Positions 4,602 through 45,659 of a stretch of 64,000 nt of DNA are shown in pieces. Within the stretch, counting starts at the first letter, position 1; each line of letters starts with the position of its first letter. This DNA is from an uncultured Mycobacteriaceae bacterium (GTDB taxonomy: Bacteria; Actinomycetota; Actinomycetes; Mycobacteriales; Mycobacteriaceae), in the NCBI GenBank assembly GCA_902826815.1, contig CADEGF010000022.1, positions 29,561 to 93,560 of the forward strand, written 5' to 3'. The translations under genes were made by a program, and so were the position numbers. The notes below the pieces were generated by a model. The model saw nothing but the letters and a program-made list of their open reading frames with translations, did no database searches and was not told the DNA's origin.

Positions 4602-4620
4602 TACGGATACCCATACAGTA
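4602..4620. promoter_or_regulatory. Candidate TetR operator copy 1
   Basis: TACGGATACCCATACAGTA fits the shared 19-base palindrome; the right half is nearly perfect and the left half is degenerate. It lies between the divergent operons starting at 4577 and 4666. TACAGT on the plus strand and TACTGT on the minus strand could serve as -10 elements, so binding would block both directions. Confidence 0.55.
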
Positions 4621-4632
4621 GGCTAAACCATT

Positions 4633-4651
4633 ACTATCCTATACAAGATAG
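4633..4651. promoter_or_regulatory. Short inverted repeat in the divergent promoter region
   Basis: CTATC and GATAG arms separated by eight bases lie directly before the AGAAAGGAAAG ribosome site of the 4666 gene. It does not fit the 19-base TetR-type palindrome, so it may be a site for the nearby GntR-family regulator (5321-6070), or only promoter sequence. Weak evidence. Confidence 0.25.
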
Positions 4652-4665
4652 AAAGGAAAGCCCGG

Positions 4666-5316
4666 ATGGCGGACGGTGACACCCCCCGGTTCGGCGAGCA
4701 ACCGCTGGCCCAGACCGTTGTCGCCGCGAGCGCGCTCCGGCATCTCGCGGGTCAGCTGTTGTCCCTGGAGCATCCGCACCCCGCCGTGGATGCCATGCTC
4801 GAGCAGCTCGGTGAATGGCAGAAGGAACTGGCAGGCGCCGTCGCGCCCGATGCCACCCCGCGGGTCGGCGCCGACGGCGCAGACACCCAGCGGGTGTACC
4901 TCTCCCACGCATTCGACATCGGCGCATTCAACCCGTGCTTTCCCACCTACGAGTTCGATCACATCGACGCGGATAGGGCGGAGGGCACGGTCACGTTCCC
5001 CGTCGTCTACGAAGGCCCGCCTGGACTTGTGCACGGCGGCTTCCTCGCCGTCTTCTTCGACTGCGTGATCCAGCATCAGAACTGCGCGACCGAGCTTTCG
5101 GGGAAGACGCGCTCGCTGAACGTGAAGTTCCGCAGGCCTACGCCCATCCTCACCGAACTGCGCTTCGACATCGTGCGGGAACAAGCCGACCGCGGTGTCA
5201 CGTCGACCGCGCGGCTGTCGCTGGACGACGAGGTGCTGTGCATCGGCGAGGCCACCACGCTCGCCCTGTCTCCGGACAAGCTGACCGGCTTTAACTTCGG
5301 CAAGCGGCGGGCCTGA
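4666..5316 (+). CDS. Hotdog-fold thioesterase-like protein (PaaI type), 216 aa
   Basis: The C-terminal half carries a hotdog domain: GLVHGGFLAVFFDCV (residues 120-134) with Asp132 near the active site, then a strand KTRSLNVKFRRPTP. The first 80 residues are an extra helical segment not needed for the fold. Such proteins hydrolyse acyl-CoA thioesters and may recycle CoA from dead-end intermediates. ATG 4666 follows AGAAAGGAAAG. It is the first gene of a plus-strand operon with a GntR regulator (5 bases downstream) and a crotonase. It resembles the minus-strand hotdog gene at 30273 in its HGG motif but is clearly different. Confidence 0.75.
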   Translation: MADGDTPRFGEQPLAQTVVAASALRHLAGQLLSLEHPHPAVDAMLEQLGEWQKELAGAVAPDATPRVGADGADTQRVYLSHAFDIGAFNPCFPTYEFDHIDADRAEGTVTFPVVYEGPPGLVHGGFLAVFFDCVIQHQNCATELSGKTRSLNVKFRRPTPILTELRFDIVREQADRGVTSTARLSLDDEVLCIGEATTLALSPDKLTGFNFGKRRA

Positions 5317-5320
5317 GCTC

Positions 5321-6070
5321 ATGGAGTTGAACGGAATTCGCCAGCCGCGCGTGGCAGAGATCGTTGCGGCGCGACTGCGCGACGAGATCCTGTCCGGCCG
5401 GCTGAAGGAGCTTCCCTCGCAGGAGAGCCTGTTCCAGCAGTTCGCCGTGAGTCCGCCTGCGATGCGCGAGGCGATCCACATCCTGGAGACCGACGGTCTG
5501 ATCTCGGTGCGGCGCGGCAACGTCGGGGGAGCGGTGGTTCACCTGCCGTCGGCGGCGCGCACCGCGCACATGATCAGCATGGTGCTGCAGACCCGCGACT
5601 CCACCCCGGCAGATGTCAGTGAGGCGCTGCTGCACCTCGAACCGATCTGCGCGGGGATGTGCGCATCGCGCGAAGACCGGATGACCGAGGTCGTTCCGTA
5701 CCTGCAGGCCGAAATCGACCGTCAGACAGAACAGTTCGACGATGTGTCGGCATATGTGCCCAACGCGCGGCGCTTTCACGAAGCGCTGGTGTCCCGGTGC
5801 GGCAACGAACCGATGATCCTGTTGATCGGCTCGCTGGAGTTGATCTGGTCGGCGCATGAGTCGTCGGTGTGGAGCGACGACGATGTGAACCCCAAGACGA
5901 TGCGCGCCGCGCTTCGTGACCACCAGAGGTTGTTGGACGCGATCGGCGACGGCAACGCGTCGCGCGCGGTGAAGTTGGCCCAGGACCATCTCGCCGCGGC
6001 GCGGCGCAACACGTTGGCGGCGGGTGCGGACAAAACCATTGAGGCGAAACTGATTTCGAGGAGCCAGTGA
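5321..6070 (+). CDS. GntR/FadR-family transcriptional regulator, 249 aa
   Basis: N-terminal winged helix (about residues 10-75): RLRDEILSGRL, SQESLFQQFAVSPPAMREAI, and a wing ISVRRGNVGGAVV. A helical FCD domain follows (about 90-235), with RFHEALVSRCGNEPM and DHQRLLDAIGDGNASRA, the usual ligand pocket helices that hold a metal and a carboxylate or acyl effector. It is coupled to the crotonase downstream. It may regulate this operon in addition to the TetR-type palindrome, with the CTATC/GATAG repeat at 4633 as a possible target; this is inference. Confidence 0.88.
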   Translation: MELNGIRQPRVAEIVAARLRDEILSGRLKELPSQESLFQQFAVSPPAMREAIHILETDGLISVRRGNVGGAVVHLPSAARTAHMISMVLQTRDSTPADVSEALLHLEPICAGMCASREDRMTEVVPYLQAEIDRQTEQFDDVSAYVPNARRFHEALVSRCGNEPMILLIGSLELIWSAHESSVWSDDDVNPKTMRAALRDHQRLLDAIGDGNASRAVKLAQDHLAAARRNTLAAGADKTIEAKLISRSQ

Positions 6071-6072
6071 CG

Positions 6073-6945
6073 ATGACTGCGTCAACCGACGACCGCGTGC
6101 TGTTCGAGGTCGACCCCGACAAGCGGATCGCGACGATCACCTTCAACAACCCCAGGCAGCGCAACTCCTACGACGCGGCCATGCGCGAGGCCGTCGCCAG
6201 GTGCCTGGATCACGTCGCAGAGAATGACGACATCACCGTGGTACTGCTACGCGGGGCGGACGGGGTATTCAGCACAGGCGCGGATATGAACAACGCATAC
6301 GGCTGGTATGGGAAGGACGAGCCTGGCAAGAAGAGCAGGCCGAGCCAGCGGCGCCGATTGACGGTGGACCGCAAGTCATTCGGCTTCTACCACAATCTGA
6401 TGGGGTTCCCGAAGGTCACCGTCGGCGAGATCAGTGGATACGCGCTCGGCGGCGGATTCGAGATGGCATTGATGACCGATATCTCCGTCATCGCCCGTGA
6501 CACGAAGATCGGCATGCCTGCCACCCGTTTCCTCGGGCCCGCGCTTGGCAGCCTGCACATGTTCTTCCACCGCCTCGGCCCTGTGCTGTCCCGGCGGCTG
6601 CTGCTGACCGGCGACATCATCGAAGCCGGTGCGGTCGAACACCTCGGCGTCTTCACCGACACGTGCGACCCGGACAAGGTCGCCGCAAGGGCGAGGTACT
6701 GGGCGGAGAAGGCGGCGAAGATGCCTGCCGACGGCGTCGTCATCGCCAAGGAGGCGTTCCGTCTCGTCGAGCAGAGCCAGGCCTATCAGGGTGAGGAAGT
6801 GGCGAGCTATCTGTTCCACGCCTACGGGACGAACCTGCAGTTCGCCGAAGGTGAGTTCAACTTCGTCAAGACGCGGGCGGCGCACGGGGCCAAGGAGGCG
6901 TTCCGCCTGCGTGACGAGCATTTCCACGTGCCCGAGCCGCAGTGA
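6073..6945 (+). CDS. Crotonase (enoyl-CoA hydratase/isomerase family), 290 aa
   Basis: Crotonase with ITFNNPRQRNSYDAAM and FSTGADMN. The first catalytic Glu is kept (SGYALGGGFEMAL), but the second position reads Ala in GMPATRFLG. A 25-residue basic insert (KDEPGKKSRPSQRRRL) lies after the oxyanion segment and makes it longer than most relatives. ATG 6073 is preferred because GAGGAG sits nine bases upstream; an in-frame GTG at 6067 overlapping the regulator stop is the alternative. Last gene of the 4666 operon. Confidence 0.85.
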   Translation: MTASTDDRVLFEVDPDKRIATITFNNPRQRNSYDAAMREAVARCLDHVAENDDITVVLLRGADGVFSTGADMNNAYGWYGKDEPGKKSRPSQRRRLTVDRKSFGFYHNLMGFPKVTVGEISGYALGGGFEMALMTDISVIARDTKIGMPATRFLGPALGSLHMFFHRLGPVLSRRLLLTGDIIEAGAVEHLGVFTDTCDPDKVAARARYWAEKAAKMPADGVVIAKEAFRLVEQSQAYQGEEVASYLFHAYGTNLQFAEGEFNFVKTRAAHGAKEAFRLRDEHFHVPEPQ

Positions 6946-6956: not shown

Positions 6957-6975
6957 TACTGAACGCTATACATTA
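6957..6975. promoter_or_regulatory. Candidate TetR operator copy 2
   Basis: TACTGAACGCTATACATTA matches the shared palindrome with both halves degenerate. TACATT at 6969-6974 could be the -10 of the thiolase gene at 7026, giving a 5' leader of about 44 bases. Confidence 0.5.
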
Positions 6976-7025
6976 TCTGCTACTTTTGTAACGTCGCTAA
7001 TACCAAAAGCTGAGGTCACGCAATC

Positions 7026-8201
7026 ATGGGCACACCTGTCATCGTCGGCGCCACCAGGACGGCCATCGGCCGCTCCTTCAAGGGCACGCTGGTCAACACA
7101 CCGCCGGAAACCTTGATCACCACGGTGCTTCCCGAGGTCGTCCGCCGGTCCGGTGTCGACCCGGCCGCGTTCGACGACATCATCATCGCCGAATCGCATT
7201 ACGGCGGCGGCGACCTCGCCCGCTATGCCGCAACCGCAACCGGAATGGACGGCGTTCCCGGTCAGTCGGTGAACCGGCACTGCGCGGGCAGCCTGACCGC
7301 CATCGGCAATGCGGCCGCCCAGATCGGCTCAGGTATGGAGCGCGCGTTGGTCGCAGGCGGCGTGCAGTCGCTGTCGATGACCCCGCTGACGAACTGGCGC
7401 ATCCCCGGTCCCGAGCTGAAGTTCGAGGAGCGGTGGATGCCGCCGACGCACGTCGAGACGCCGGATGCGCCGTGCAAGGACATGTCGATCACGGTCGGCT
7501 GGAACACTGCGCAGTCGGTCGGCATCACCCGCGAGGAGATGGATGCGTGGGCGGCGCGGTCGCATCAGCGCGCGATCGCCGCGATCGACGCAGGCAAGTT
7601 CGGAGACGAGATCATCCCGCTGAAGGTGCAGCAGTTCGACGGATCCGTCATCGACTTCAGCGTCGACGAGTTCCCGCGTCGCGACACCACCGTCGAGAAG
7701 CTGGCCGGGCTGAAGGTTCTGCATCCCGAGATCGAGGGCTTCTCCATCACCGCGGGCAACAGCAGCGGCACCAACGACGCCGCGGCCGCGGTGGCACTGG
7801 TCGACAGTGACTACGCCGACGCCGAGAAGCTGACCAAGATGGCGACCGTGAAGGCTTGGGCCTCAGCCGGTGTCGCTCCGCGCGACTGCGGGCTCGGTGC
7901 TGTCAAGGTGATCGGCAAGGTGCTCGACCGCGCGGGCTTGAAGCCGTCGGACGTCGCGCTGTGGGAGATCAACGAAGCTTTCGCCTCGGTGCCGATTGCG
8001 GCGTGTCGCGAACACGGCATCGACGAGGAGCTTGTCAATTTCTCCGGAAGCGGTTGCAGCCTCGGCCATCCCATCGCCGCATCGGGTGCGCGCATGGTGA
8101 CGACGCTGGTTTACGAGTTGCAGCGGCGCGGCGGCGGTATCGGGGTTGCCGCGATGTGCGCAGGCGGCGGCCAGGGCGGCGCCGTCGTCATCGAGGTCTA
8201 G
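7026..8201 (+). CDS. Acetyl-CoA acetyltransferase-type thiolase, 391 aa
   Basis: Complete thiolase. The acyl-accepting cysteine lies in NRHCAGSL (Cys86), NEAFA is present, His348 lies in GHPIAASG, and the second catalytic cysteine is in CAGGGQG (Cys378). These are the residues for thiolytic cleavage of a 3-ketoacyl-CoA, so it likely ends a beta-oxidation round. Its length is standard for the family. Single-gene unit: operator copy 2 lies upstream and the TetR gene converges from the other side with only three bases between stops. Confidence 0.92.
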   Translation: MGTPVIVGATRTAIGRSFKGTLVNTPPETLITTVLPEVVRRSGVDPAAFDDIIIAESHYGGGDLARYAATATGMDGVPGQSVNRHCAGSLTAIGNAAAQIGSGMERALVAGGVQSLSMTPLTNWRIPGPELKFEERWMPPTHVETPDAPCKDMSITVGWNTAQSVGITREEMDAWAARSHQRAIAAIDAGKFGDEIIPLKVQQFDGSVIDFSVDEFPRRDTTVEKLAGLKVLHPEIEGFSITAGNSSGTNDAAAAVALVDSDYADAEKLTKMATVKAWASAGVAPRDCGLGAVKVIGKVLDRAGLKPSDVALWEINEAFASVPIAACREHGIDEELVNFSGSGCSLGHPIAASGARMVTTLVYELQRRGGGIGVAAMCAGGGQGGAVVIEV

Positions 8202-8204
8202 CGA

Positions 8205-8924
8205 TTACTTCTTGCGCGCCGGCTTTTTCGTCGCGGCGATCAATCGCTCGGCGTGCTCGAGAATGCACTCGAGGCCGTAGTCGAAGTTGAAATCGTCTGC
8301 CGCGCCGATGCGGTGGCCCTTGGCGGTCGCCTGCGCGAGCAGCGGTGCGGTTGCCGCGTCGACGACCATCGTCTCCTCGAAGTCGCCCGCCCCGTCGCTC
8401 GCCCTGTTCTTGTCGTAGAGCCGTTGCAGCACAACGGATCCGCGCACATGAACCGACACCGCAGAGTAGGTGTCGAACGCGTCCTCGGGTGAGAGCCCCG
8501 CCTCGGCAAGGCTCTCGATGGCCTTCTCGACTGCGGCCACCCCGAGCTTCGCGGCGCGTGGGCTCAAAGCCGACCGGATCAGGATCAGGTCGCACAGAAT
8601 CGGGTTGGAGAGAAAGGTCTTTCGCATCGTGCGCGCGTGGTTGGCCAGCGTCTCGCGCCAGTCCTTGGCCTCCACGTACGGGGTGGCGAAGACGTACTGC
8701 TTGAGCGCGCGGTCGGTCATCGCGTTGAGCAGGTCGTCCTTCTTGCGGAAGTACCAGTAGATGCTCGTCACGCCGACGCCGAGGTGCTTGCCAAGAAGCG
8801 GCATGCTGAGGTTGTCGATGCCGACGTCCTCGGCGAGCTCGAATGCGCCCTTGATGATGTCGTCTGGATTGATGGACCCGCGTTCGCGCCGCGGACGCTT
8901 TTCCGCGGTTGCCTGCTTGGCCAC
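8205..8924 (-). CDS. TetR-family regulator, proposed master repressor of the cluster, 239 aa
   Basis: TetR family. The N-terminal helix-turn-helix contains SMPLLGKHLGVGVTSIYWYFRKK (about residues 39-61) after a basic tail (KRPRRERG); the rest is an all-helical ligand domain ending in a lysine-rich tail. GTG 8924 is chosen because GGAGG lies eight bases upstream; a TTG at 8939 would put that site inside the gene. Its promoter holds operator copy 3, shared with the divergent 9014 operon. The same palindrome occurs at seven other promoters, so this protein is the best candidate for the regulator, probably released by a CoA ester. Inference from position only. Confidence 0.88.
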   Translation of the reverse strand: MAKQATAEKRPRRERGSINPDDIIKGAFELAEDVGIDNLSMPLLGKHLGVGVTSIYWYFRKKDDLLNAMTDRALKQYVFATPYVEAKDWRETLANHARTMRKTFLSNPILCDLILIRSALSPRAAKLGVAAVEKAIESLAEAGLSPEDAFDTYSAVSVHVRGSVVLQRLYDKNRASDGAGDFEETMVVDAATAPLLAQATAKGHRIGAADDFNFDYGLECILEHAERLIAATKKPARKK

Positions 8925-8953
8925 GAGGGGCACCTCCAATTGTTTCGCTCGAC

Positions 8954-8972
8954 TACTGTAAGACCTATAGTA
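8954..8972. promoter_or_regulatory. Candidate TetR operator copy 3 (tetR / 9014 operon)
   Basis: TACTGTAAGACCTATAGTA. On the minus strand TACAGT is a likely -10 for the TetR gene; on the plus strand TATAGT is a likely -10 for the 9014 operon. This shared site is the main argument that the TetR protein binds the motif and controls its own gene. Confidence 0.65.
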
Positions 8973-9013: not shown

Positions 9014-9775
9014 GTGTCAGAAGAAGTTCTACGGGAGCGCCGCGGACGCGTACTCGTCATCACCATCAATCGGCCGGACGCGCGTAACGCGGTCAACCTC
9101 GCGGTCAGCCAGGGTCTGGCCGATGCGGTCGATGAACTCGACGACAGCGCCGATCTCTCGGTGGCGGTGATCACCGGCGCGGGCGGAAACTTCTGTTCGG
9201 GTATGGACCTCAAGGCGTTCGCCGCCGGTGAGGTCGTCGCTATTCCCGGCCGCGGTATCGGCTTCACCGAGCGGCCGCCGAGAAAGCCGGTCATCTCCGC
9301 CGTCGAGGGCTATGCGCTGGCCGGCGGCACCGAGGTGGTGCTGGCCACCGACCTGGTGGTGGCGTCGCGGACCGCGAAGTTCGGCATCCCGGAAGCCAAG
9401 CGCGGTCTGGTCGCCGCCGGCGGCGGGCTACTGCGGCTGCCGCGGCGGATCCCGTACCAGAAGGCGCTCGAATTGGCTTTGACCGGAGAGAGTTTCACCG
9501 CCGAGCAGGGTGAGCAGTGGGGTTTCGTCAACACGGTCACCGAACCCGGCGAGGCGCTGGCGGGCGCGATCGAGCTCGCCGAGCGCATCACCGCCAACGG
9601 GCCGCTGGCCGTCGCGACCACCAAGGAGATCATCACGAAGTCCGCGGATTGGTCGGAAGACGAGATGTGGCGCAAGCAGCTCGAATACATCTTGCCGATC
9701 TTCACCTCCAACGACGCAAAGGAAGGCGCGATCGCTTTCGCCGAGAAGCGCGCGCCGAACTGGACCGGCACCTGA
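9014..9775 (+). CDS. Enoyl-CoA hydratase (classical crotonase), 253 aa
   Basis: The only crotonase in the window in which I can see both classical catalytic glutamates: EGYALAGGTEVVLA and FGIPEAKRGL. FCSGMDLKAF marks the oxyanion hole. It should add water to a 2-enoyl-CoA. GTG start at 9014 with GCGAAGGGC upstream. It heads an operon with an SDR (GTG 9786) and an aldolase (10596), together a plausible hydration, oxidation and carbon-carbon cleavage set. Operator copy 3 controls the promoter. Confidence 0.9.
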   Translation: MSEEVLRERRGRVLVITINRPDARNAVNLAVSQGLADAVDELDDSADLSVAVITGAGGNFCSGMDLKAFAAGEVVAIPGRGIGFTERPPRKPVISAVEGYALAGGTEVVLATDLVVASRTAKFGIPEAKRGLVAAGGGLLRLPRRIPYQKALELALTGESFTAEQGEQWGFVNTVTEPGEALAGAIELAERITANGPLAVATTKEIITKSADWSEDEMWRKQLEYILPIFTSNDAKEGAIAFAEKRAPNWTGT

Positions 9776-9785: not shown

Positions 9786-10583
9786 GTGGACCTCGGCCTG
9801 GAGAATGCCACCGCGGTAGTCGTCGGCGGCGGTCGCGGCATGGGACTGGCCGCCGCACGCTGCCTCGCCGACGACGGTGCGCGCATCGCGATCGTCGGGA
9901 GGACCCGGTCGGTTCTCGACGAGGCCGCCGATGAACTGTCGAGCCGTGGCAGCCCCGATGCGGTGGGTCTGGTGGCCGACGTCACCGATACCGAAGCGGC
10001 TCAACAGGTTTTCGACGATGTGAGCGGTCGGTGGGGCGGCGAACTCAACATCCTCGTCAACGTCGCAGGGCCGAGCGCGGTTGGGACCTTCACCGACCTC
10101 ACCGACGAGCAGTGGCGCCAAGCGGTCGACGAAGGCGTGATGGGCATGGTGCACTGCGTCCGGTCTGCACTGCCCATGCTGCGCAAGGCGGAATGGGCGC
10201 GGATCGTGAACTTCTCCGCGCACTCGACGCAACGGCAGAGCGTCATCCTGCCGGCCTATACGGCGGCCAAGGCGATGGTCACCAGCATCTCCAAGAACCT
10301 GTCGCTGTCCCTGGCGCCGGACGAGATCATGGTGAACGTCGTGTCGCCGGGCAGCATTCTGTCCGAATCACTGGCCGGCTGGGCTGATTCCGTCGGTATC
10401 GACGGAAGCGATCCGTATGCAGTGATGGCCGGAATCGACAAGCACTTCGGGCACCCGGCGCATCTGCCGCGCGCAGGCACACCCGACGAGATCGGTCCCG
10501 TCGTCGCCTTCCTCGTCTCGCGCGCCAACTCCTATATGACCGGCGCCAACATCAATGTCGACGGCGGCAGCGACTTCACCTGA
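9786..10583 (+). CDS. Short-chain dehydrogenase/reductase, 265 aa
   Basis: Classical SDR. The nucleotide loop GGGRGMG is at residues 14-20, NVAG at 92-95, and the catalytic YTAAK at 158-162, with the active-site serine in the NFSAHS strand just before. The C-terminal motif TGANINVDGG is standard. It probably oxidises a hydroxyacyl-CoA made by the hydratase upstream. GTG 9786 is preceded by GAGGACGG and lies 10 bases after the hydratase stop. Confidence 0.9.
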   Translation: MDLGLENATAVVVGGGRGMGLAAARCLADDGARIAIVGRTRSVLDEAADELSSRGSPDAVGLVADVTDTEAAQQVFDDVSGRWGGELNILVNVAGPSAVGTFTDLTDEQWRQAVDEGVMGMVHCVRSALPMLRKAEWARIVNFSAHSTQRQSVILPAYTAAKAMVTSISKNLSLSLAPDEIMVNVVSPGSILSESLAGWADSVGIDGSDPYAVMAGIDKHFGHPAHLPRAGTPDEIGPVVAFLVSRANSYMTGANINVDGGSDFT

Positions 10584-10595: not shown

Positions 10596-11603
10596 ATGGC
10601 AACGGCCCGCGAAGCCAGGGACTGGGCGCGCACGACATTGCGTGGAATCGGCAACAGCCTCTACACGCCGTTCAGTGGTACCGACGGCGACGACATCGAC
10701 TGGGACGCCTACCGGGCCCTGGTTCGCTACTGCGTAGGGGAGCTCAACCACCCCATGCTCTGGTGCACCAGCGGCATCGCGGAATTCTGGTCGCTGACGA
10801 TCGCCGAACGAAAGCAGTTGCTGGAGGTCGCAATCGAAGAAGGCCGGCGGGCCAATCCCGATGTCCTCGTCCAGGCATGTACGGCGGCCACGGCCGCGAA
10901 GGACTGCCTCGAGCTGACCCGGCACGCGCAAGAGGCGGGCGCCGACATCGTCTACATCCAGACGCCGATGATGGAGGCTCACGGTGGGGAAGGGGTGCTG
11001 AACTTCTTCCGCTACATCGCCGACCGCACCGATATCGCGCTCGGCATGTTCAACTCGCCGTCGTCGGGCTATGTGCTGACGCCTGCGGAGGGTGCCCGCA
11101 TCTACTCGGAGATCCCGGCCGTCTGCGCGACGAAGGAGGGCGCCTTCCGGCCCGCGAGCAGTCGGATTCTGCACGAGCTTGCGCCCGATCTGACGATCTG
11201 GGAGTGCGACCTGACGGTGTACCGCGCGGGCTGGTTGCGGGCGGGGATCGTCGGTCCGGCGCAACTCGGGACGGCGGGCTACCTGTACGAGACGCCGCAG
11301 CAGCCGGTCATCTCCGAGTACTGGGAGCTTGTCTGGGGCGACAAGCTGGTCGAGGCGATGGACCACGCCGAGAAGTCCGGGCTCGATCAGTTCGGTATCG
11401 ACATGGCGTCGTGGTTCACCTGCTACCCCGGTCGGCCGGACTACTTCACGCACTGGGGTGGGGCGTTCAAATACGCGGCGTCGGTGCTCGGTCTGCCGAT
11501 CGGCGACTACCCGCACTCTCGGCCGCCGCAGGCGGTGTTCCCCGCCGAGGGCAAGTCGCAGATCGATGCAGCGTATCGACGGTACGGACTGGTCTTGAGC
11601 TGA
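10596..11603 (+). CDS. DHDPS-fold class I aldolase or hydratase-aldolase, 335 aa
   Basis: Dihydrodipicolinate-synthase superfamily barrel. LYTPFSG at the N-terminus is the usual first strand, and AVCATKEGAF carries the Schiff-base lysine (Lys180). The position of the usual catalytic tyrosine reads Phe in MFNSPSSGY. At 335 residues it is longer than lysine-pathway DapA (about 300) and close to hydratase-aldolases of aromatic degradation (NahE/PhdJ type). A retro-aldol step releasing a pyruvate-like unit fits its place after a hydratase and an SDR; that is inference. Good ribosome site GGAGG before ATG 10596. Confidence 0.8.
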   Translation: MATAREARDWARTTLRGIGNSLYTPFSGTDGDDIDWDAYRALVRYCVGELNHPMLWCTSGIAEFWSLTIAERKQLLEVAIEEGRRANPDVLVQACTAATAAKDCLELTRHAQEAGADIVYIQTPMMEAHGGEGVLNFFRYIADRTDIALGMFNSPSSGYVLTPAEGARIYSEIPAVCATKEGAFRPASSRILHELAPDLTIWECDLTVYRAGWLRAGIVGPAQLGTAGYLYETPQQPVISEYWELVWGDKLVEAMDHAEKSGLDQFGIDMASWFTCYPGRPDYFTHWGGAFKYAASVLGLPIGDYPHSRPPQAVFPAEGKSQIDAAYRRYGLVLS

Positions 11604-11628: not shown

Positions 11629-11647
11629 TACCGAAAGGTGTACAGTA
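11629..11647. promoter_or_regulatory. Candidate TetR operator copy 4
   Basis: TACCGAAAGGTGTACAGTA. TACAGT at 11641-11646 ends seven bases before GTG 11654, so the transcript probably starts on the start codon itself (leaderless). The operator would cover the -10 of the longest operon in the window (11654-22614). Confidence 0.6.
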
Positions 11648-11653: not shown

Positions 11654-12469
11654 GTGAGTGCTGACGACCCGGTCCTCTACGAGCTACGCGACACCGGTGT
11701 CGCAGTGCTGACCCTCAACCGGCCAGAGCGGATGAACGGGTGGGGCGGCGGGCTTGCGGCCAGGTTCTACTCGCTGCTCGACGAGGCCGATGCCGACCCG
11801 GACGTGCGCGCGATCGTCGTCACCGGCGCGGGCCGGGCGTTCTGCGCGGGCGCCGATATGGGCGACCTGTCGTCGATCGAGAAGGCCAACACCGACGGCG
11901 ACGCCGATATATCCAAGTTGGTCGGCGAACGGTATCCGCATTTCGTTGCGACGCTGCGCAAGCCGGTCATCGCCGCGATCAACGGCGCGTGCGCAGGCAT
12001 CGGGCTGACCCAGGCGCTGATGTGCGACATCCGGTTCGCTGCAGCGGGGGCGAAGTTCACCACATCCTTCGCGCGCCGCGGCCTCATCGCGGAATACGGC
12101 ATCAGCTGGATCCTCCCGCGCGTCGTCGGCTTGGGCGTGGCGATGGACCTGTTGTTGTCGGGCCGCGTCTTTCTCGCCGAAGAGGCGAAGGCACTCGGAC
12201 TCGTCAACGACGTCGTCGCACCGGACGAGCTGTTACCCCGTGCGATCGGCTACGCCGAGGACATCGCCGCCAACTGCGCGCCGAGTTCTCTGGCGGTGAT
12301 CAAACAACAGGTGTACGCAGACACCATGCGCGACGTGCTCGAGGCCAGCGACCATGCCGAGAAGCTGATGGGTGAATCCATGCAACGCCCCGACTTCATC
12401 GAGGGCATCACCGCATTCTTCGAGAAGCGCACACCGAACTTCCCGCCGCTCAAGGAGGTATCGCTATGA
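11654..12469 (+). CDS. Crotonase (enoyl-CoA hydratase/isomerase family), 271 aa
   Basis: LTLNRPERMNGWGGGL and FCAGADMGDL are crotonase signatures. The two classical Glu positions read Thr (GACAGIGLTQAL) and Ala (TSFARRGLIAEYG); a different acidic residue (AEYG) follows, a pattern common in uncharacterised actinobacterial EchA proteins. GTG 11654 is likely the first transcribed base, seven bases after a TACAGT -10. It is first gene of a ten-gene operon running to 22614 in which nearly every junction overlaps. It ends in an ATGA overlap with the amidohydrolase. Confidence 0.86.
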   Translation: MSADDPVLYELRDTGVAVLTLNRPERMNGWGGGLAARFYSLLDEADADPDVRAIVVTGAGRAFCAGADMGDLSSIEKANTDGDADISKLVGERYPHFVATLRKPVIAAINGACAGIGLTQALMCDIRFAAAGAKFTTSFARRGLIAEYGISWILPRVVGLGVAMDLLLSGRVFLAEEAKALGLVNDVVAPDELLPRAIGYAEDIAANCAPSSLAVIKQQVYADTMRDVLEASDHAEKLMGESMQRPDFIEGITAFFEKRTPNFPPLKEVSL

Positions 12470-13674
12470 CTCCCAAACTGGACTACATGGCCATCGACGT
12501 CGACAACCACTACTACGAGACGATCGATTCGTGCACCCGGCATCTGCCCAAGGAGTTCAGGCGCCGCGGCGTGCAGATGCTCACCGAGGGCAAACGCACG
12601 TTCGCGATCATGGGCGGCGTCGTCAACCAGTTCATCCCGAACCCGACGTTCGACCCGATCATCGAGCCGGGCTGCCTCGACCTGTTGTTCCGCGGCGAGA
12701 TCCCCGAGGGCGTCGACCCCGCGTCGCTGATGAAGGTCGACCGGCTCGCCGACCATCCCGAGTACCAGAACCGCGATGCCCGCGTGAAGATCCTCGACAA
12801 GCAGAACCTCGAAACCGTGTTCATGCTGCCGACATTCGCGTGCGGGGTCGAGGAGGCCCTCAAGCACGACGTCGAGGCGACCATGGCCACGGTCCACGCG
12901 TTCAACCTGTGGCTCGACGAGGACTGGGGCTTCGACCGTCCCGACCACCGGTTCCTCTCGGCGCCGATCATCTCGCTCGCCGACCCCGAAAAGGCCGTCG
13001 AGGAAGTCGATTTCGTGCTGAGCCGCGGCGCCAAGATCGTCTGCGTGCGCCCCGCTCCCGTCCCGGGCGTGGTCAAGCCGCGCTCACTGGGCGATCCCGT
13101 GCACGATCCGGTATGGGCGCGCCTCGCAGAAGCCGGCGTTCCGGTGGTCTTCCACCTCTCCGACAGCGGCTATCTCGCGATCGCCGCGCTGTGGGGCGGG
13201 CAGGCGACGTTCGAGGGGTTCGGCAAGAAGGATCCTCTCGACCAGGTACTGCTCGACGACCGCGCCATTCACGACGCGATGGCGTCGATGATCGTCCACC
13301 AAGTTTTCACCCGGCATCCGAAGCTGAAGGTGGCCAGCATCGAGAACGGCTCCTACTTCGTGTACCGCTTGATCAAGCGGCTGAAGAAGTCCGCGAACAC
13401 CGCGCCGTATCACTACAAGGAGGATCCGGTCGAGCAGCTGCGCAACAACGTCTGGATCGCGCCGTACTACGAGGACGACGTGAAGGTGCTCGCAGAGACC
13501 ATCGGCGTCGACAAGATCCTGTTCGGCTCGGACTGGCCACACGGTGAGGGCCTGGCGGACCCGATGGCGTTCACGGCTGACATCCCGCAATTCCCCGAGT
13601 TCAGCGCGGAGGACACCAGAAAGGTCATGCGGGACAACGCGCTCGAGCTGCTCGGCGTGCACGTTTCCGCCTAG
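12466..13674 (+). CDS. Amidohydrolase-2 family metal-dependent hydrolase/decarboxylase, 402 aa
   Basis: TIM-barrel amidohydrolase of the ACMSD-related group. Likely metal ligands: DVDNHYYE near the N-terminus, His in VVFHLSDSG, and Asp in FGSDWPHGEG near the C-terminus. Members decarboxylate or hydrolyse ring acids without a redox step. AAGGAGG precedes ATG 12466, which overlaps the crotonase stop. It pairs with a second, shorter member at 15319, with a ligase between them. In mycobacteria such genes often sit in FadD/FadE/EchA clusters; their substrates are mostly unknown. Confidence 0.82.
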   Translation: MTPKLDYMAIDVDNHYYETIDSCTRHLPKEFRRRGVQMLTEGKRTFAIMGGVVNQFIPNPTFDPIIEPGCLDLLFRGEIPEGVDPASLMKVDRLADHPEYQNRDARVKILDKQNLETVFMLPTFACGVEEALKHDVEATMATVHAFNLWLDEDWGFDRPDHRFLSAPIISLADPEKAVEEVDFVLSRGAKIVCVRPAPVPGVVKPRSLGDPVHDPVWARLAEAGVPVVFHLSDSGYLAIAALWGGQATFEGFGKKDPLDQVLLDDRAIHDAMASMIVHQVFTRHPKLKVASIENGSYFVYRLIKRLKKSANTAPYHYKEDPVEQLRNNVWIAPYYEDDVKVLAETIGVDKILFGSDWPHGEGLADPMAFTADIPQFPEFSAEDTRKVMRDNALELLGVHVSA

Positions 13675-13702
13675 TCATGTCGCGGACGCGAGGAGCATAA
13701 GG

Positions 13703-15322
13703 GTGTCCGAGTGGACCATCGGCGATGTCGTCGACGCCATCGCTGACGTCATACCGGATCGCACCATGACGGTCTGTGGTGACCGCGTCACGACCTACGG
13801 CGAGATGGCCTCGCGCACACGCCGACTGGCCAACTTCCTCGCGGACAAGGGGTTCGGCGCGCACCGCGACCGCGACGGGCTGGACAACTGGGAGTGCGGC
13901 CAGGACCGCGTCGCGTTGATCATGTTCAACGACCGCTATCCCGAGATGGTGATCGGCTGCCTGAAGGCTCGCACGGTCCCGGTCAACGTCAACCACCACT
14001 ACACCCCGCGCGAGGTCGCCGACCTCCTCGAGTATGTGAAGCCGCGCGCGGTCATCTACCACCGCGCGCACGGCGCGAAGTTCGCCGACGTGCTCTCCTC
14101 GCTCGGTGCCGACCTGCTCATCGCCGTTGACGACGGCAGCGACGTCCCCGACATTGCGGGCGCCGTAGGTCTGGACGATGCTGTGGCACAGGGCGATCCG
14201 GATTGTCGGATTGTCGGGTCGCCGGACGACGTCATCATGTACTGCACAGGGGGCACGACCGGAAGGCCCAAAGGTGTGCTGTGGCGCCAAAGCGACACCT
14301 ACGTGTCGTCGATGGTCGGCGCCGACCATGAATCGCCTGCCGAGATCCACGACAAGGTGAAGCGGAACGTCGGCCCGCCGTGGTTCGCGGTGTCGCCGCT
14401 TATGCACGCGGCCGGTCTGTGGACGGTGTTCTCTGGCACGCTGGCCGGACTGCCCGTTGTGCTGTATGACGACCGAAACAAGTTCGACCCGGCGTTGGTG
14501 CTGCGCACCGCCGAGCGGGAGAAGGCGGGCATGATGACGATGGTGGGAGATGCCTATGCCGCCCCGCTCGTCGAGGAACTCAACCGGGCTGACTATGACT
14601 TGTCGTCGCTGTACGCGATCGGAACGGGCGGCGCCGCAACCAATCCCAAGCACGTGAGTGCCCTGCTGGAGAAGCTGCCTGCGCTGACGATCATCAACGG
14701 CTACGGATCGTCGGAGACCGGAAACATGGGATTCGGACACAACCAGGTCGACTCCCATCGGGAGACCTTCGATTTGCGCGAAGGTGGAACCGTAGTGTCC
14801 GATGACCTGACCAGGTTCGTCGCGGCGGGCGACCCCGACGTCGGCTGGGTGGTACGCACCGGCCGGATACCGCTTGGCTACTTCGACGATGCCGACGCGA
14901 CCCGACGGACCTTCCCCGTGGTGGAGGGACAGCGCGTCGTGGTGTCTGGCGACCGCGCATCACTTGAGGCCGACGGCACGCTGCGCCTGTACGGCCGCGA
15001 CTCCCTGGTCGTCAACACCGGCGGAGAGAAGGTCTTCGTGGAGGAGGTCGAGGCGGTGCTGCGGGCATGCCATGGCGTGGCGGATGCGCTGGTGGTCGGG
15101 CGCGACAGCGAACGGTGGGGTCAGGAGATCGTCGCCCTCGTGCAGACCCAGCCGGACGACAAGGTCGACAGCGAGTCGCTCTACGACTCATGTGTCGAGA
15201 ACCTGGCCCGCTTCAAGGCGCCGAAGGAGTTCATCTTCGTCGACAAGGTCCGCAGGCTCGGCAACGGCAAGGCCGACTACCGGTGGGCGAAAAGCCAAGC
15301 AACGCAACGGGCGCTGACATGA
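13703..15322 (+). CDS. Acyl-CoA synthetase, FadD19-like, 539 aa
   Basis: Full-length adenylate-forming ligase. CTGGTTGRPKGVLWR is the ATP loop, GYGSSETG the A5 motif, and NGKADYRWAK the C-terminal lysine region. The GVLWR and ADYRWAK blocks match the pattern of FadD19-type steroid side-chain ligases as I remember it, and also the ligase at 28598. It likely activates a carboxylic acid on a ring or branched side chain. GTG 13703 follows AGGAG. The stop overlaps the next ATG (ATGA). Confidence 0.88.
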   Translation: MSEWTIGDVVDAIADVIPDRTMTVCGDRVTTYGEMASRTRRLANFLADKGFGAHRDRDGLDNWECGQDRVALIMFNDRYPEMVIGCLKARTVPVNVNHHYTPREVADLLEYVKPRAVIYHRAHGAKFADVLSSLGADLLIAVDDGSDVPDIAGAVGLDDAVAQGDPDCRIVGSPDDVIMYCTGGTTGRPKGVLWRQSDTYVSSMVGADHESPAEIHDKVKRNVGPPWFAVSPLMHAAGLWTVFSGTLAGLPVVLYDDRNKFDPALVLRTAEREKAGMMTMVGDAYAAPLVEELNRADYDLSSLYAIGTGGAATNPKHVSALLEKLPALTIINGYGSSETGNMGFGHNQVDSHRETFDLREGGTVVSDDLTRFVAAGDPDVGWVVRTGRIPLGYFDDADATRRTFPVVEGQRVVVSGDRASLEADGTLRLYGRDSLVVNTGGEKVFVEEVEAVLRACHGVADALVVGRDSERWGQEIVALVQTQPDDKVDSESLYDSCVENLARFKAPKEFIFVDKVRRLGNGKADYRWAKSQATQRALT

Positions 15323-16149
15323 CACACACGGCCATTGACTGCCTCCTCAACGTGCACTTCGGCGAGACCGAACAGCAGCCGAACTGGATGCTCAAGGTGC
15401 GCGACGACTACTTCAAGGGACCCGAGTCGATGTTCGCCCCGGTCGACCTGGCCGAGCTGCTCGACGAGATGGACGAGCAGGGGGTGGCCAAGGCCATCCT
15501 GATGGACAACCTCGCCAAACCGTCGGTCACGGCGCGCAAGTTCGTCGAGTCGAGGCCCGATCGGTTCACGTTGGCGATGGGCGGCGTCAACCTACTCAAG
15601 CCGGTGCCGTCACTGCGCGAGCTCTGCGCGGTCGTCAACGATCTGCCCGTGGCGTATACCGTTGTTGGGCCCAGCTTCTGGGGTGACGGGCAGTATCCGC
15701 CGAGCGATGCGGTCTACTACCCGCTGTACACGAAGTGCGCGGAGATGGAACTGCCGCTGTGCATCAACACCGGGCTACCAGGGCCGCCGATTCCCGGTGA
15801 AGCCCAGAACCCGATCCACCTCGACCGCGTGTGCGTGCGCTTCCCCGAACTGAAGCTGTGCATGATCCACGGCGCCGACCCGTGGTGGGACGTCGCGATC
15901 CGGCTGATGATCAAGTACCAGAACCTGCGGCTGATGACGTCGGCGTGGTCGCCGAAGCGGCTGCCGGAAAGCCTGCTGCACTTCATGCGCACCCGCGGCA
16001 AGAACAAGATCATCTATGCCTCCGACTGGCCGGTGCTGCGGATGCGCCGAGTGGTGCCGGAAGCGCTCGCGCTCGACCTGCCCGCAGATGTGCTCGACAA
16101 CTACCTGTACAACAACGCCGCTGAATTCTTTTTCGGAGAACAGGACTGA
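15319..16149 (+). CDS. Amidohydrolase-2 family protein, 276 aa
   Basis: Shorter relative of the 12466 gene. DCLLNVHFGE at the N-terminus stands where the usual HxH or NxH metal motif occurs, MIHGADPWW gives a histidine, and YASDWPVL gives the late aspartate. The barrel appears complete. It is coupled to the ligase before it and sits two bases before the acyl-CoA dehydrogenase pair. A decarboxylase or C-C hydrolase acting on a CoA-activated ring acid is possible; no direct evidence for substrate. Confidence 0.8.
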   Translation: MTHTAIDCLLNVHFGETEQQPNWMLKVRDDYFKGPESMFAPVDLAELLDEMDEQGVAKAILMDNLAKPSVTARKFVESRPDRFTLAMGGVNLLKPVPSLRELCAVVNDLPVAYTVVGPSFWGDGQYPPSDAVYYPLYTKCAEMELPLCINTGLPGPPIPGEAQNPIHLDRVCVRFPELKLCMIHGADPWWDVAIRLMIKYQNLRLMTSAWSPKRLPESLLHFMRTRGKNKIIYASDWPVLRMRRVVPEALALDLPADVLDNYLYNNAAEFFFGEQD

Positions 16150-16151
16150 CC

Positions 16152-19395: not shown

Positions 19396-19403
19396 CCTGA
19401 AAC

Positions 19404-22614: not shown

Positions 22615-22618
22615 CGCA

Positions 22619-23764: not shown

Positions 23765-23780
23765 GGGCCGAGTGTATCGC

Positions 23781-23799
23781 AACTGTAACTCTTACAGTA
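23781..23799. promoter_or_regulatory. Candidate TetR operator copy 5 (perfect 17-base core)
   Basis: ACTGTAA, three bases, TTACAGT: perfect arms at 23782-23798. It sits between the divergent thiolase homologue (start 23764) and the molybdopterin oxidoreductase (start 23811). TACAGT appears as a possible -10 on both strands, so one bound repressor would close both promoters. Confidence 0.72.
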
Positions 23800-28528: not shown

Positions 28529-28547
28529 TACTGTAAAGATTACAGTA
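28529..28547. promoter_or_regulatory. Candidate TetR operator copy 6 (perfect 19-base palindrome)
   Basis: TACTGTAAAGATTACAGTA: all eight outer bases of each arm are complementary, the best copy in the window. On the minus strand TACAGT would be the -10 of the P450 gene, about 15 bases before its ATG. It lies 51 bases beyond the end of the ligase gene (28598). Confidence 0.75.
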
Positions 28548-30253: not shown

Positions 30254-30272
30254 CGAATCTCTCAAGAGCCTT

Positions 30273-32546: not shown

Positions 32547-32565
32547 AACGGAAGATATTACAGTA
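32547..32565. promoter_or_regulatory. Candidate TetR operator copy 7
   Basis: AACGGAAGATATTACAGTA: the right half is perfect, the left half degenerate. It lies between the divergent Rieske operon (32517) and the flavin monooxygenase operon (32613). TACAGT at 32559-32564 is a likely plus-strand -10, with transcript start near 32572. Confidence 0.55.
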
Positions 32566-32612
32566 TAGTTTTCGGCAGTTTGGACCCAGCGACAGCGCAA
32601 GGAGGCGTGGCG

Positions 32613-34229: not shown

Positions 34230-34232
34230 CCG

Positions 34233-35360
34233 ATGAAGACCTCGCAGCGGGCCTATCGGATGGGTCGGGATTTCGCGGGTGTGCTGCCGCGCGCACATGC
34301 TGCGCTGAGAACCTCCGGTGACTGGAAACCGTTGTCGCCGACGGGTGCACGCCAGCTCGGCGAGGTGGTGCTCGACGAACTCGCGCTGTCGGGGATGACA
34401 CTGACGGCGCCGCCGCCGAAACTGGAACGCACCTTGGCCTCGTGCGAGGCCGCGGCTGAAGAGCTGTCCGCACTGGGCGTCGAGGGGGCACACGCCAGCC
34501 CGGAACCCCTGGCGGTGCAAGCGCTTCGCCGCCGTCGCCTCGGCAGGCTGACCTACGAGAAGCTGAAGTTCACTCACGATCCGACGCTGCCGAATTCGTT
34601 GACGGCAGTCGGTTTCGGCGGGCCCGCGACCGCGGTGGCACACCTGTGCAGAACCATTGACGAGGCGCGGCCGTGGCTGGTGTGGGTGCACGGCGCAGGC
34701 CAGGGCCAACCGATCGACCTTCTGTTTTCGCGGGCCAGGCGCATCAGGGATGAGCTCGGCTTCAATATCGCGCTACCGATCCAGCCGGGCCACGGTTCGC
34801 GGCGCAATGCGTGGCCGCCGTATCCGAACATGGATCCCCTGAGCAATGTGGCGGGAATGATGCGCGTCGTCTCGGAGGTCCGCGCCCTCGTGCGGTGGCT
34901 GAGGCCGCAGTCGACCGTGATGGCGGTGTCCGGGGTTTCCATGGGAAGTCCGGTGGCAGCGCTGGTTTCGCATTTCGAGCAGGTCGACGGTGTGGCCGTG
35001 TACACGCCGATCCTCGGGTTGAACGCAATGATCTCCCAGCATCTCGGCCGTTGGGGCCCATCGGTCGACGACACGATCGCGCTCCTCGGGTCGGACACTG
35101 TGGCCGCGGTGGCATCCGCGGTCGATCACACGGCAGTCGAGCCGACGGCGCCGCCGCGTGGACGCCTCGTCGTGGGCGCCTGGCACGACCGGATGGCCAT
35201 GCGTGAGCCCGCCATTGCGCTGCACGACCGTTGGGGCGGTGAGTTGTTCTGGCACAGGGGAAGCCACGTAGGACATCTCTTCGCGGGCGGTGTGCATGGT
35301 GCCTCAGAGAAGTTCCTGCGCACACTCAGTGCGGGAGACGGCCGCCGATCGTCCGGGTGA
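34233..35360 (+). CDS. Alpha/beta hydrolase, 375 aa
   Basis: Alpha/beta-hydrolase fold. LVWVHGAGQG gives the oxyanion-loop HG motif, the nucleophile elbow is GVSMGS with Ser236, and HVGHL near the C-terminus can supply the catalytic histidine. Following a Baeyer-Villiger-like enzyme, it is a natural candidate to open an ester or lactone. Its end overlaps the convergent IclR gene by 35 bases. The first 100 residues are helical and not typical of small esterases. Confidence 0.82.
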   Translation: MKTSQRAYRMGRDFAGVLPRAHAALRTSGDWKPLSPTGARQLGEVVLDELALSGMTLTAPPPKLERTLASCEAAAEELSALGVEGAHASPEPLAVQALRRRRLGRLTYEKLKFTHDPTLPNSLTAVGFGGPATAVAHLCRTIDEARPWLVWVHGAGQGQPIDLLFSRARRIRDELGFNIALPIQPGHGSRRNAWPPYPNMDPLSNVAGMMRVVSEVRALVRWLRPQSTVMAVSGVSMGSPVAALVSHFEQVDGVAVYTPILGLNAMISQHLGRWGPSVDDTIALLGSDTVAAVASAVDHTAVEPTAPPRGRLVVGAWHDRMAMREPAIALHDRWGGELFWHRGSHVGHLFAGGVHGASEKFLRTLSAGDGRRSSG

Positions 35361-39262: not shown

Positions 39263-39287
39263 TGTCGTTCCTTAATCATGAAGTCGG

Positions 39288-40712: not shown

Positions 40713-40749
40713 GGGCAAAACCCCTCTATGAGATGTGACGTGCGCCGCA

Positions 40750-40762
40750 TTCATATTATGAA
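40750..40762. promoter_or_regulatory. Candidate operator of the transporter operon (13-base palindrome)
   Basis: TTCATATTATGAA is a perfect palindrome with one central base, 38 bases before the transporter ATG. Its short AT-rich form fits IclR-family sites, and the operon ends in an IclR gene. No other copy was noticed. Confidence 0.5.
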
Positions 40763-43992: not shown

Positions 43993-44021
43993 CCGGATGT
44001 GCGCGGCTCTAGTTTCCGTCG

Positions 44022-44079
44022 CGAGCAGACGCGAAAACCCCTAATTTCCCGCCGAAATAGGGGTTTTCACGTCTGCTCG
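44022..44079. terminator. Long hairpin between convergent genes (bidirectional terminator)
   Basis: Arms 44022-44043 and 44058-44079 (starting CGAGCAGACG, ending CGTCTGCTCG) pair over 22 bases with one mismatch, and the loop can add a small TTTC/GAAA stem. It lies between the luciferase-like stop at 43992 and the carboxyltransferase stop at 44089. GAGCAGACG-type hairpins like this recur at convergent mycobacterial gene ends, as I recall. Confidence 0.78.
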
Positions 44080-44088
44080 TCGGAGAAG

Positions 44089-45585
44089 TCAGGGTGTGAT
44101 GACGGTGCGGCTCACCGGTTCCGCGGCGGCCTGCCTGCTGTAGATCCCACGCTGAAGCGCCGACAGCAGCGCGTCCCGGGTCTCCTCGGGATGGATCAAA
44201 TCGTCGAAGCCGAGGGTTCCCGCTGACCGGAAGGACGCCTCCACCTCCGCCTTGCGGAGCTTGGCCTCGACGTCCTCCGCGGCGTGCGACGCTTTGCTGA
44301 GGGCGGCGGCGCTCATCGCGCCCATGGTGGCGCCCGGATAGGCGAATGTTGCGCCCTGGTTGTCGAATCCCAACAGCGACATGACCATCGAGCCGAATCC
44401 GTACGCCTTACGCAGGGTCACGTGAAGCTTGATCGTCGTCGCCGCCGTCTGCGCGGCGAACATCCGCGCCCCGCTGCGCAGCACACCGCTCTTCTCGGAC
44501 CGGCTGCCCGGCAGCATTCCCGGGTTGTCGGCCAGGAACACGATCGGCAGGTGAAACGCGTCGGCGACCATGATGAAATGCGCGGCCTTGTCGGCGGCGT
44601 CGGCGTCGATCGAACCGGCAAGCACTTTCGGCTGGTTGGCCACGACCGCGACGGGGTGGCCGCCGAGATGAGCAAGCGCGCAGATGATCGCGGGCCCGAA
44701 CTTCGGCTGCACCTCGAACCAGTCCGCCGTATCGAAGACGATGTCGAGCACCGCGCGAATGTCGTAAACCCGGCGGTTGGTGCGCGGCACGATGTCGAGC
44801 AGTTCGGGTGTCGGCCGCGGCGCACTCGTTTCGTCGGCGGCGCGCTGCGCGGGATACGACCATGCGCTCGCCGGGAAGTACGACAGGTAGCGGCGGATAT
44901 CGTCGAGCACGGCCTCGTCGTCCTCGGCGAGGTTGTGGATCACGCCGCTGGCGAGTGCGACCCCTGGCCCGCCGAGGTCCTCCTTCGAAATGTCCTCGCC
45001 CGTCGACTCTTTGACGACCGGCGGACCCGCGGTGAAGATCGCGCCATGGCGGCTCATGATGGTGAAGTCGCAGACCGGTGCGACAAGGGCGCCGTGGCCT
45101 GCCGACGGGCCGAGCAGGCCTGCCACCGTCGGGACCTTGCCCGAGCACCGCGCCTGGGCGAGCAGATCTGTCGGGGTGCGGCCGTAATGCTCTCCGCTGG
45201 GCCGGAATCCGGCGCCCTCGAGGAGCATCACCAGCGGCACCTTGTCGCGCAGCGCCAGTTCGGCGAGCCGGTAGCGCTTCGCGTTGCCGCCCGGCCCGAT
45301 GCTGCCCGCGAGCGTGGTGAAGTCCTCGGCGCCTACCATCACCGGTGAGCCGTCGATCATCCCTGAGCCCGCGACGATCCCGTCGGCGGCGATGTCACCG
45401 CCGACGAGCGTGCCGAACTCACGGAAGGTGCCCTTGTCGAGCAGGTGCTCCAGCCGCGCGCGGGCGTCGAGTTTGCCCTTGCCGCGGTGTTTGGCCAGCC
45501 GTTCCTCACCGCCCATGGACCGCGAGCGCTGACGCCGAAGGCCAAGGTCTTCGAGAGTTTCCTTCCAGCCCTGCTCATTTGTCAT
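44089..45585 (-). CDS. Acyl-CoA carboxylase carboxyltransferase subunit (AccD-like), 498 aa
   Basis: Carboxyltransferase of the propionyl/methylcrotonyl-CoA type: two crotonase-like halves, with GPSAGHGALVAPVCDF and HGAIFTAGPPVVKESTGED in the first, and NPGMLPGSRSEKSGVLRSGARM then YGFGSMVMSLLG in the second. No biotin carboxylase or biotin carrier gene lies nearby, so it must borrow them or act as a decarboxylase. ATG 45585 follows ACGGGAA. Operator copy 8 lies upstream, divergent from a luciferase-like/P450 operon. Confidence 0.88.
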   Translation of the reverse strand: MTNEQGWKETLEDLGLRRQRSRSMGGEERLAKHRGKGKLDARARLEHLLDKGTFREFGTLVGGDIAADGIVAGSGMIDGSPVMVGAEDFTTLAGSIGPGGNAKRYRLAELALRDKVPLVMLLEGAGFRPSGEHYGRTPTDLLAQARCSGKVPTVAGLLGPSAGHGALVAPVCDFTIMSRHGAIFTAGPPVVKESTGEDISKEDLGGPGVALASGVIHNLAEDDEAVLDDIRRYLSYFPASAWSYPAQRAADETSAPRPTPELLDIVPRTNRRVYDIRAVLDIVFDTADWFEVQPKFGPAIICALAHLGGHPVAVVANQPKVLAGSIDADAADKAAHFIMVADAFHLPIVFLADNPGMLPGSRSEKSGVLRSGARMFAAQTAATTIKLHVTLRKAYGFGSMVMSLLGFDNQGATFAYPGATMGAMSAAALSKASHAAEDVEAKLRKAEVEASFRSAGTLGFDDLIHPEETRDALLSALQRGIYSRQAAAEPVSRTVITP

Positions 45586-45640
45586 GTGCAATTCCCGTCG
45601 TCGGAAGGCGATCGTCGCACCGTCGTGCTCACGTTGACCA

Positions 45641-45659
45641 TACTGAATTGCTTACTGTA
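45641..45659. promoter_or_regulatory. Candidate TetR operator copy 8
   Basis: TACTGAATTGCTTACTGTA: near-symmetric copy of the shared palindrome between the divergent carboxyltransferase (45585) and luciferase-like (45672) genes, about 11 kb from the next copy. TACTGT at 45653-45658 is a likely plus-strand -10. Confidence 0.58.

Follow-up and report, generated by a model that had tools for sequence, protein, structure and literature searches.

A 19-bp palindrome at eight promoter regions of a mycobacterial catabolic gene cluster, very probably the operator of a TetR-family repressor

In a 64,000-nucleotide stretch of DNA from an uncultured Mycobacteriaceae bacterium (contig CADEGF010000022.1, positions 29,561 to 93,560; the whole stretch is hereafter called the window), eight copies of a 19-bp palindrome precede the genes of a large catabolic cluster. 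Judging from comparative sequence analysis, this palindrome is very probably the binding site of one TetR-family repressor, and the candidate is encoded within the cluster itself, at 8205-8939 (tetR; product TetR 8205). We consider it highly likely that a dimer of TetR 8205 binds the palindrome at the eight promoter regions and thereby holds the cluster under ligand-released repression. That TetR 8205 controls the motif had been proposed in an initial annotation made from the sequence alone, and comparative genomics now supports this interpretation through the position of the sites, their co-occurrence with the gene, remote homologues, the recognition helix, and the absence of a competing GntR regulator from many motif-bearing genomes.

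The palindrome in the window and in the host genome

A pattern search of the window located every copy listed in the initial annotation, at 4602, 6957, 8954, 11629, 23781, 28529, 32547 and 45641, and the bases that it held to be fixed (A2, C3, G5, T13, A14, T18 and A19) are shared by all the aligned copies. The window contains 16 strand matches to the pattern, while 100 shuffles average 0.05; a matrix built from the eight sites scores them at 21.0-32.3, and 10 Markov-simulated windows together contain a single match of at least 12. Perfect arms had been attributed to two copies, which is right for 28529, with perfect 8-base arms, and slightly generous for 23781, where the inner 7 bases match and the outermost pair is A...A. 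A ninth, weak and overlapping site lies at 32559 (matrix score 15.5).

With corrected gene calls, five sites (4602, 8954, 23781, 32547 and 45641) lie between divergent genes, in agreement with the earlier count; 23781 and 45641 belong here because a minus-strand thiolase lies on the left of the former and a plus-strand luciferase-like oxidoreductase on the right of the latter. A plus-strand gene call at 22547-23788 was dropped as a shadow of that thiolase. The remaining three sites (6957, 11629 and 28529) face genes in one direction only. With about 7-55 bp between them and the inferred start codons, the eight sites probably overlap the likely -10 boxes and transcription starts.

The host genome was searched in full (6,871,345 bases, 141 contigs). 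With up to three mismatches, TACTGTAANNNTTACAGTA occurs at five places, all of them inside the cluster, and TACNGTANNNNNTACNGTA with one mismatch finds the same five, whereas the reversed control patterns match 7 and 6 times, respectively; chance matches are therefore expected at these settings, yet none falls outside the cluster. The remainder of the contig (about 30 kb) holds no matrix match of at least 11. With E up to 10, a sequence-model scan of the genome, which is insensitive, recovered just the two best sites.

A consensus of TACtGTA-nnnnn-TACaGTA was derived, on both strands, from 128 distinct sites that the window's own matrix had selected in relatives. Conservation is symmetric across the 19 bp; positions 2, 3, 17 and 18 are about 99% constant, and positions 5 and 15 reach 89%. 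Each arm is thus a TACnGTA unit, with centres 12 bp apart. Among 258 distinct sites, 7 have a third unit exactly 12 bp further on one side and 6 have one on the opposite side, the mean count for other offsets being 0.77; by its sequence, the window pair 32547/32559 is a degenerate case of this three-unit arrangement. At offset -23, a TACnGTA-like unit is found 12 times among the 258 distinct sites of the fetched loci, perhaps reflecting one promoter family.

Association of the motif with the TetR gene across genomes

TetR 8205 carries a TetR_N DNA-binding domain (PF00440, E 2.9e-13) and a ligand-type TetR_C_1 domain (PF02909, E 6.1e-12), and matches the class A tetracycline repressor 5mru in a phmmer comparison (E 4.2e-17). 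The site previously placed in its promoter, 8954-8972, does adjoin tetR, and the arrangement is repeated upstream of orthologues. Of 80 mycobacterial loci with orthologues (the best 80 of 289 relatives; 1.53 Mb, denoted L below), 78 have a site no more than 400 bp upstream of tetR, and the 80 loci contain 228 matrix matches of at least 14, compared with 2 in Markov controls.

The association extends to 301 genomes of the family (denoted G), in which TetR was counted at E up to 1e-30 and the palindrome at up to 2 mismatches. Each occurs in 50 of the 301; both are present in 46, TetR alone in 4, the motif alone in 4, and neither in 247. Outside the window's own genus the corresponding figures are 20, 3, 4 and 245, and within it TetR is found in 27 and the motif in 26 of 29 genomes; the pattern recurs within single genera, for in each of the genera g23 and g28 TetR and the motif occur in the same five genomes. 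The Fisher value for this co-occurrence, 1e-44, overstates independence because genomes share ancestry. The reversed control pattern occurs in 63 of the 301 genomes (hand count), and since only 8 of these are among the 50 TetR genomes, chance matches do not track TetR. A separate sampling of the genus found the palindrome within one mismatch in 59 of 98 genomes and the control pattern in 0.

These data bear on three other explanations of the sites. First, the palindromes could be a dispersed repeat or a shared core-promoter element rather than operators, and TACAGT and TACTGT do resemble a TAnnnT -10 box. Nevertheless, strong matches are confined to this cluster within 6.87 Mb, the flanks of the eight sites are unrelated to each other in an alignment, conservation runs symmetrically through the whole 19 bp, and 247 of the 251 genomes without TetR have no match within 2 mismatches, so that we regard this explanation as extremely unlikely.

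Second, the GntR/FCD regulator at 5321-6070 could be the binder, as it lies in a site-bearing run downstream of site 4602 and every genome with a close orthologue at E up to 1e-70, 15 in all, also has the motif. Those 15 of the 301 genomes all belong to one genus, whereas the motif occurs in 50, 35 of which have no close GntR orthologue. Moreover, both genes flanking GntR are found with GntR itself absent in 17 of the 80 loci, 16 of which keep the site at tetR, and of 16 genomes checked individually, 14 have a GntR match of at best 49% identity, the other two being positive controls with close copies. GntR 5321 was rejected as the binder on this distribution, and we give the idea very little credence. 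Its close orthologues occur in 15 of the 29 sampled genomes of its own genus, and it may be a second, dispensable regulator.

Third, another regulator could bind the sites, either from outside or from within the window, where an IclR gene (35326-36114) and a second TetR gene (40850-41473) are both present; the co-occurrence comparison covered TetR 8205 and GntR. Neither of these two genes has a matrix match of at least 8, and it is TetR 8205 that follows the motif across genera, which makes a different binder a very improbable alternative.

The attribution to TetR 8205 extends to distant relatives. The motif is found at orthologues of the same catabolic genes in other genera, and it lies 75-235 bp upstream of remote TetR homologues, namely those of L125-L127 with 37-43% identity and one on a Rhodococcus plasmid. 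This plasmid, pYLL1 of Rhodococcus sp. YL-1, encodes a TetR relative with 49% identity over 68% of the query, and a 40.5-kb stretch of it has five matrix matches of at least 14: 75 bp before tetR and before genes for an enoyl-CoA (coenzyme A) hydratase, a thiolase (two matches, 12 bp apart) and an acyl-CoA dehydrogenase. Nearly all listed homologues, including motif-bearing ones down to 37% identity, retain VGVTSIYW in the recognition helix; variants are IGVTSIYW (L110, L113 and L114) and SGVTSLYW in L128, a 35% homologue whose stretch holds no match of at least 10.

Genes that have moved away from the cluster are also informative. Fifteen stretches (L134-L148) were taken around matches that lie outside the main cluster or in a genome lacking the TetR, and relocated genes keep the operator in five of them: the site adjoins an orthologous carboxyltransferase (82-83%) in L134-L136, a molybdoenzyme (78%) in L137 and an epimerase (62%) in L140. 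The G301 contig that carries both the carboxyltransferase and tetR is 5.06 Mb long; the two genes lie at 0.83 and 4.07 Mb, respectively, and even if the contig is circular no less than 1.8 Mb separates them. The simplest reading of the sequences is selection for the operator itself. The comparisons thus support the sites, their position before genes, the link between TetR and motif, and conservation at relocated genes.

Several observations weigh against this interpretation. Sites 4602, 6957 and 32547 each differ from the palindrome at 4 positions, and conservation of 6957 is poor. These three were recovered only with a looser pattern, which was run on the window; the genome-wide patterns are too strict to detect them and would also miss sites of similar weakness in the rest of the genome, for which the insensitivity of the model scan likewise leaves room. 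Two of the 80 loci, L047 and L052, have no site at tetR; L114, with 57% identity and a near-identical helix, has no match of at least 10 on its 3.3-kb contig; and in L124 (45%) the only upstream site is weak (13.8), the strong site being found about 1 kb downstream of the gene. Among the 15 outlying stretches, ten have no clear counterpart of a window gene beside the site. Four genomes have TetR and no motif within 2 mismatches (G101, G178, G292 and G300), and four have the motif without TetR (G030, G044, G113 and G233). G292 misses by threshold only, its tetR site scoring 18.7 (L127), and G044 is an apparent exception with a different TetR and its own similar tandem palindrome (L148). There, at L148:4083-4123, two tandem TACTGTACGNCGTACAGTA-like palindromes precede this other TetR, which is a distant one and differs in its recognition helix; the TetR studied here is lacking from that genome. 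Finally, substrate and ligand are guesses based on the kinds of enzyme encoded.

Predicted regulon and proposed mechanism

The operon layout and the conserved operators define the predicted extent of the regulon (Table 1). About 13 transcripts are inferred from the sequence to start from the eight sites, and the predicted runs cover every called gene from 707 to 35360 together with the 44.1-47.9 kb group, in line with the earlier proposal that the sites control nearly every gene of 1-34 kb and of that group.

Table 1. Putative operators, the TetR gene and the genes of the predicted regulon, in window coordinates
Feature	Position	Strand	Evidence or remarks
Putative operator between ech3 (-) and 4666 gene (+)	4602..4620		Pattern; sites at same gene pair in other loci
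Putative operator upstream of thiolase 7026 (+)	6957..6975		Pattern; L009 counterpart scores 15.8
Putative operator between tetR and ech5, putative autoregulation	8954..8972		Pattern; site upstream of tetR in relatives
Putative operator of the 11.65-22.6 kb run, about 7 bp ahead of its first gene (enoyl-CoA hydratase)	11629..11647		Pattern; many loci with sites about 1-4 kb beyond tetR
Putative operator between minus-strand thiolase and plus-strand molybdoenzyme	23781..23799		Pattern; identical sequence in L116, L118
Perfect palindrome, putative operator of P450-CoA transferase operon (-)	28529..28547		Pattern; counterparts in L116, L118-L123
Putative operator between Rieske oxygenase (-) and Baeyer-Villiger monooxygenase (+)	32547..32565		Pattern; counterparts in L120, L121
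Weak overlapping second site, partial third TACnGTA-like unit 12 bp on	32559..32577		Pattern, matrix; such geometry also elsewhere
Putative operator between carboxyltransferase (-) and luciferase-like oxidoreductase (+)	45641..45659		Pattern; kept at unlinked carboxyltransferase in L134-L136
TetR-family repressor (244 aa open reading frame)	8205..8939	-	TTG start; GTG at 8924 with upstream GGAGG likelier
Acyl-CoA ligase (fadD)	707..2284	-	Run of site 4602
Three enoyl-CoA hydratase family genes	2149..4577	-	2149-2943, 2934-3746, 3765-4577
216 aa protein	4666..5316	+	No Pfam match at 1e-5
GntR/FCD regulator	5321..6070	+	Pfam
Enoyl-CoA hydratase family	6067..6945	+	
Thiolase	7026..8201	+	Over TIGR01930 cut-off
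Enoyl-CoA hydratase family	9014..9775	+	
Short-chain dehydrogenase	9786..10583	+	
DHDPS-superfamily protein	10596..11603	+	Pfam
Enoyl-CoA hydratase	11654..12469	+	Start inferred
Catabolic run	12466..22614	+	Two PF04909 amidohydrolases, PRK07798-type acyl-CoA ligase, two acyl-CoA dehydrogenase-like genes, epimerase/3beta-HSD-like, two Ord/DapB-like dehydrogenases, Peripla_BP_6 protein
Thiolase/SCP2-like protein	22619..23782	-	ATG at 23764
Molybdopterin oxidoreductase	23811..25970	+	Start inferred
CoA transferase family III and cytochrome P450	26061..28507	-	
PRK07798-type acyl-CoA ligase	28598..30265	-	
Thioesterase-like and isochorismatase-like genes	30273..31498	-	
KshA-like Rieske oxygenase	31495..32517	-	
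Baeyer-Villiger monooxygenase and alpha/beta hydrolase-looking protein	32613..35360	+	Start of monooxygenase inferred
Acyl-CoA carboxyltransferase	44089..45591	-	ATG at 45585 likely
Luciferase-like monooxygenase	45672..46703	+	Start inferred
Cytochrome P450	46508..47935	+	Nearest solved relative P450-terp; start of reading frame probably too early

TetR repressors in general act as dimers that sit on a palindrome and block polymerase until a ligand binds. From such knowledge of the family we infer dimer binding, repression, ligand release and the class of ligand in the present case. A dimer of TetR 8205 would bind the 19-bp TACTGTAANNNTTACAGTA through its two TACnGTA units; in its ligand-free form it would cover the -10 and start regions of the 13 or so transcripts, its own included, and block RNA polymerase. 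The pathway substrate or a CoA-thioester intermediate would then enter the C-terminal pocket of TetR and release it from DNA, allowing expression of the cluster at roughly 0.7-35.4 kb and 44.1-47.9 kb.

The pathway perhaps degrades a cyclic terpenoid or a steroid-like compound, a guess towards which we lean somewhat because of the enzyme types encoded (P450, Baeyer-Villiger, Rieske, ligases, hydratases and thiolases). P450-terp, the nearest solved relative of the P450 at 46508, matches it at E about 1e-103, the Baeyer-Villiger enzyme is nearest to phenylacetone and steroid monooxygenases, and the KshA-like Rieske oxygenase is accompanied by two acyl-CoA ligases of PRK07798 type. The second protein of 32613-35360 has no Pfam match and, on our own reading of its sequence, looks like an alpha/beta hydrolase. 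Within the long catabolic run, the Peripla_BP_6-domain protein (20447-21562) sits between the two Ord/DapB-like dehydrogenases.

Between 35.4 and 44.1 kb the matrix scan found no site. This stretch encodes IclR, a hydroxyacid dehydrogenase, an HMG-CoA-lyase-like protein, a CoA transferase, GntP, the second TetR, a kinase-like protein and an F420 oxidoreductase; its minus-strand part at 35326-40754, comprising IclR, the D-2-hydroxyacid dehydrogenase, the HMG-CoA-lyase-like protein, the CoA transferase and the GntP permease, resembles an operon of its own for the use of hydroxy acids.

Several relatives carry a second TetR within the cluster, for example beside the P450 gene in L116 and L118-L123 (at about 7000-8200). 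At the window counterpart no TetR gene separates the CoA transferase gene from the P450 gene, the two meeting at 27284-27287, and the window's own genome has one TetR match at E up to 1e-30. In 11 two-copy genomes, the DNA-binding regions of the copies are 67-95% identical and the ligand regions 45-73%. Such paralogues could share one operator code and sense different ligands, so that the regulon would integrate two signals (e.g., substrate and CoA intermediate), perhaps via mixed dimers and three-unit operators spaced by 12 bp; this is a doubtful proposal, and the same pattern of divergence would also be expected from ordinary domain constraint.

If TetR 8205 does act as proposed, a regulator and an operator code would be assigned to a large catabolic cluster of mycobacteria and related genera. 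The operator would help to define the gene set of the pathway, including members scattered elsewhere in the chromosome, and would make the substrate findable through screening for de-repression.

Comparison with known regulatory systems

Open-licence PMC papers, searched without regulon databases, yielded no description of this motif or regulon. The closest parallels were compared on the basis of the portions of the published texts available. The motifs of Balhana et al. (PMC4482099) are given as images there, and the present motif may be among them.

The regulon resembles that of KstR (Rv3574), an autoregulated TetR-type repressor of a large lipid-catabolic regulon with palindromes between divergent genes and over the -10 region (PMC1995591). 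The operators differ: as the initial annotation had held, the motif is not of the KstR type, since the eight aligned sites do not fit the KstR operator reported in that text, TnnAACnnGTTnnA. Nor is it of the KstR2 type as worded in that annotation, CAAGnnCTTG, which the eight sites do not fit either. KstR2 is comparable as a TetR repressor of steroid ring catabolism whose reported effector is a pathway CoA thioester (PMC6593523). KstR3 of Mycolicibacterium neoaurum, likewise a TetR-family negative regulator encoded with aldolase and reductase genes, appears to differ in its operon, described as atf1-chsH4-chsE6-kstR3, and in the seven genes changed in its deletion (PMC10398937); no DUF35 match of the chsH4 type was found among the 29 distinct window reading frames given to Pfam.

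Another relative by design is G155_05115, the Rv0767c orthologue, a TetR whose palindrome, motif X, lies at 14 operons and which is associated with P450 genes (PMC6593523). In that source the letters of motif X appear only in a figure; as far as the comparison goes, the present motif does not seem to be of the Rv0767c type. The locus L133, which from its gene order is the likely Rv0767c-type locus of this genome, has no matrix match above 9.5, and its TetR shows no significant similarity to TetR 8205 (E 0.45). L133 carries GGACAnnTGTCC palindromes, namely GGACAGCTGTCC at 7772-7783 and GGACATGTGTCC at 7930-7941, at the TetR gene of a P450-short-chain dehydrogenase-P450 locus with a divergent aldehyde dehydrogenase; they are perhaps the operator of the Rv0767c-like regulator.

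The tetracycline repressor TetR shares the TetR_N and TetR_C_1 architecture of TetR 8205, but differs in the recognition-helix residues of the alignment. Taken as a whole, the design of the regulon is ordinary for such TetR networks, and it is conserved in many related bacteria.

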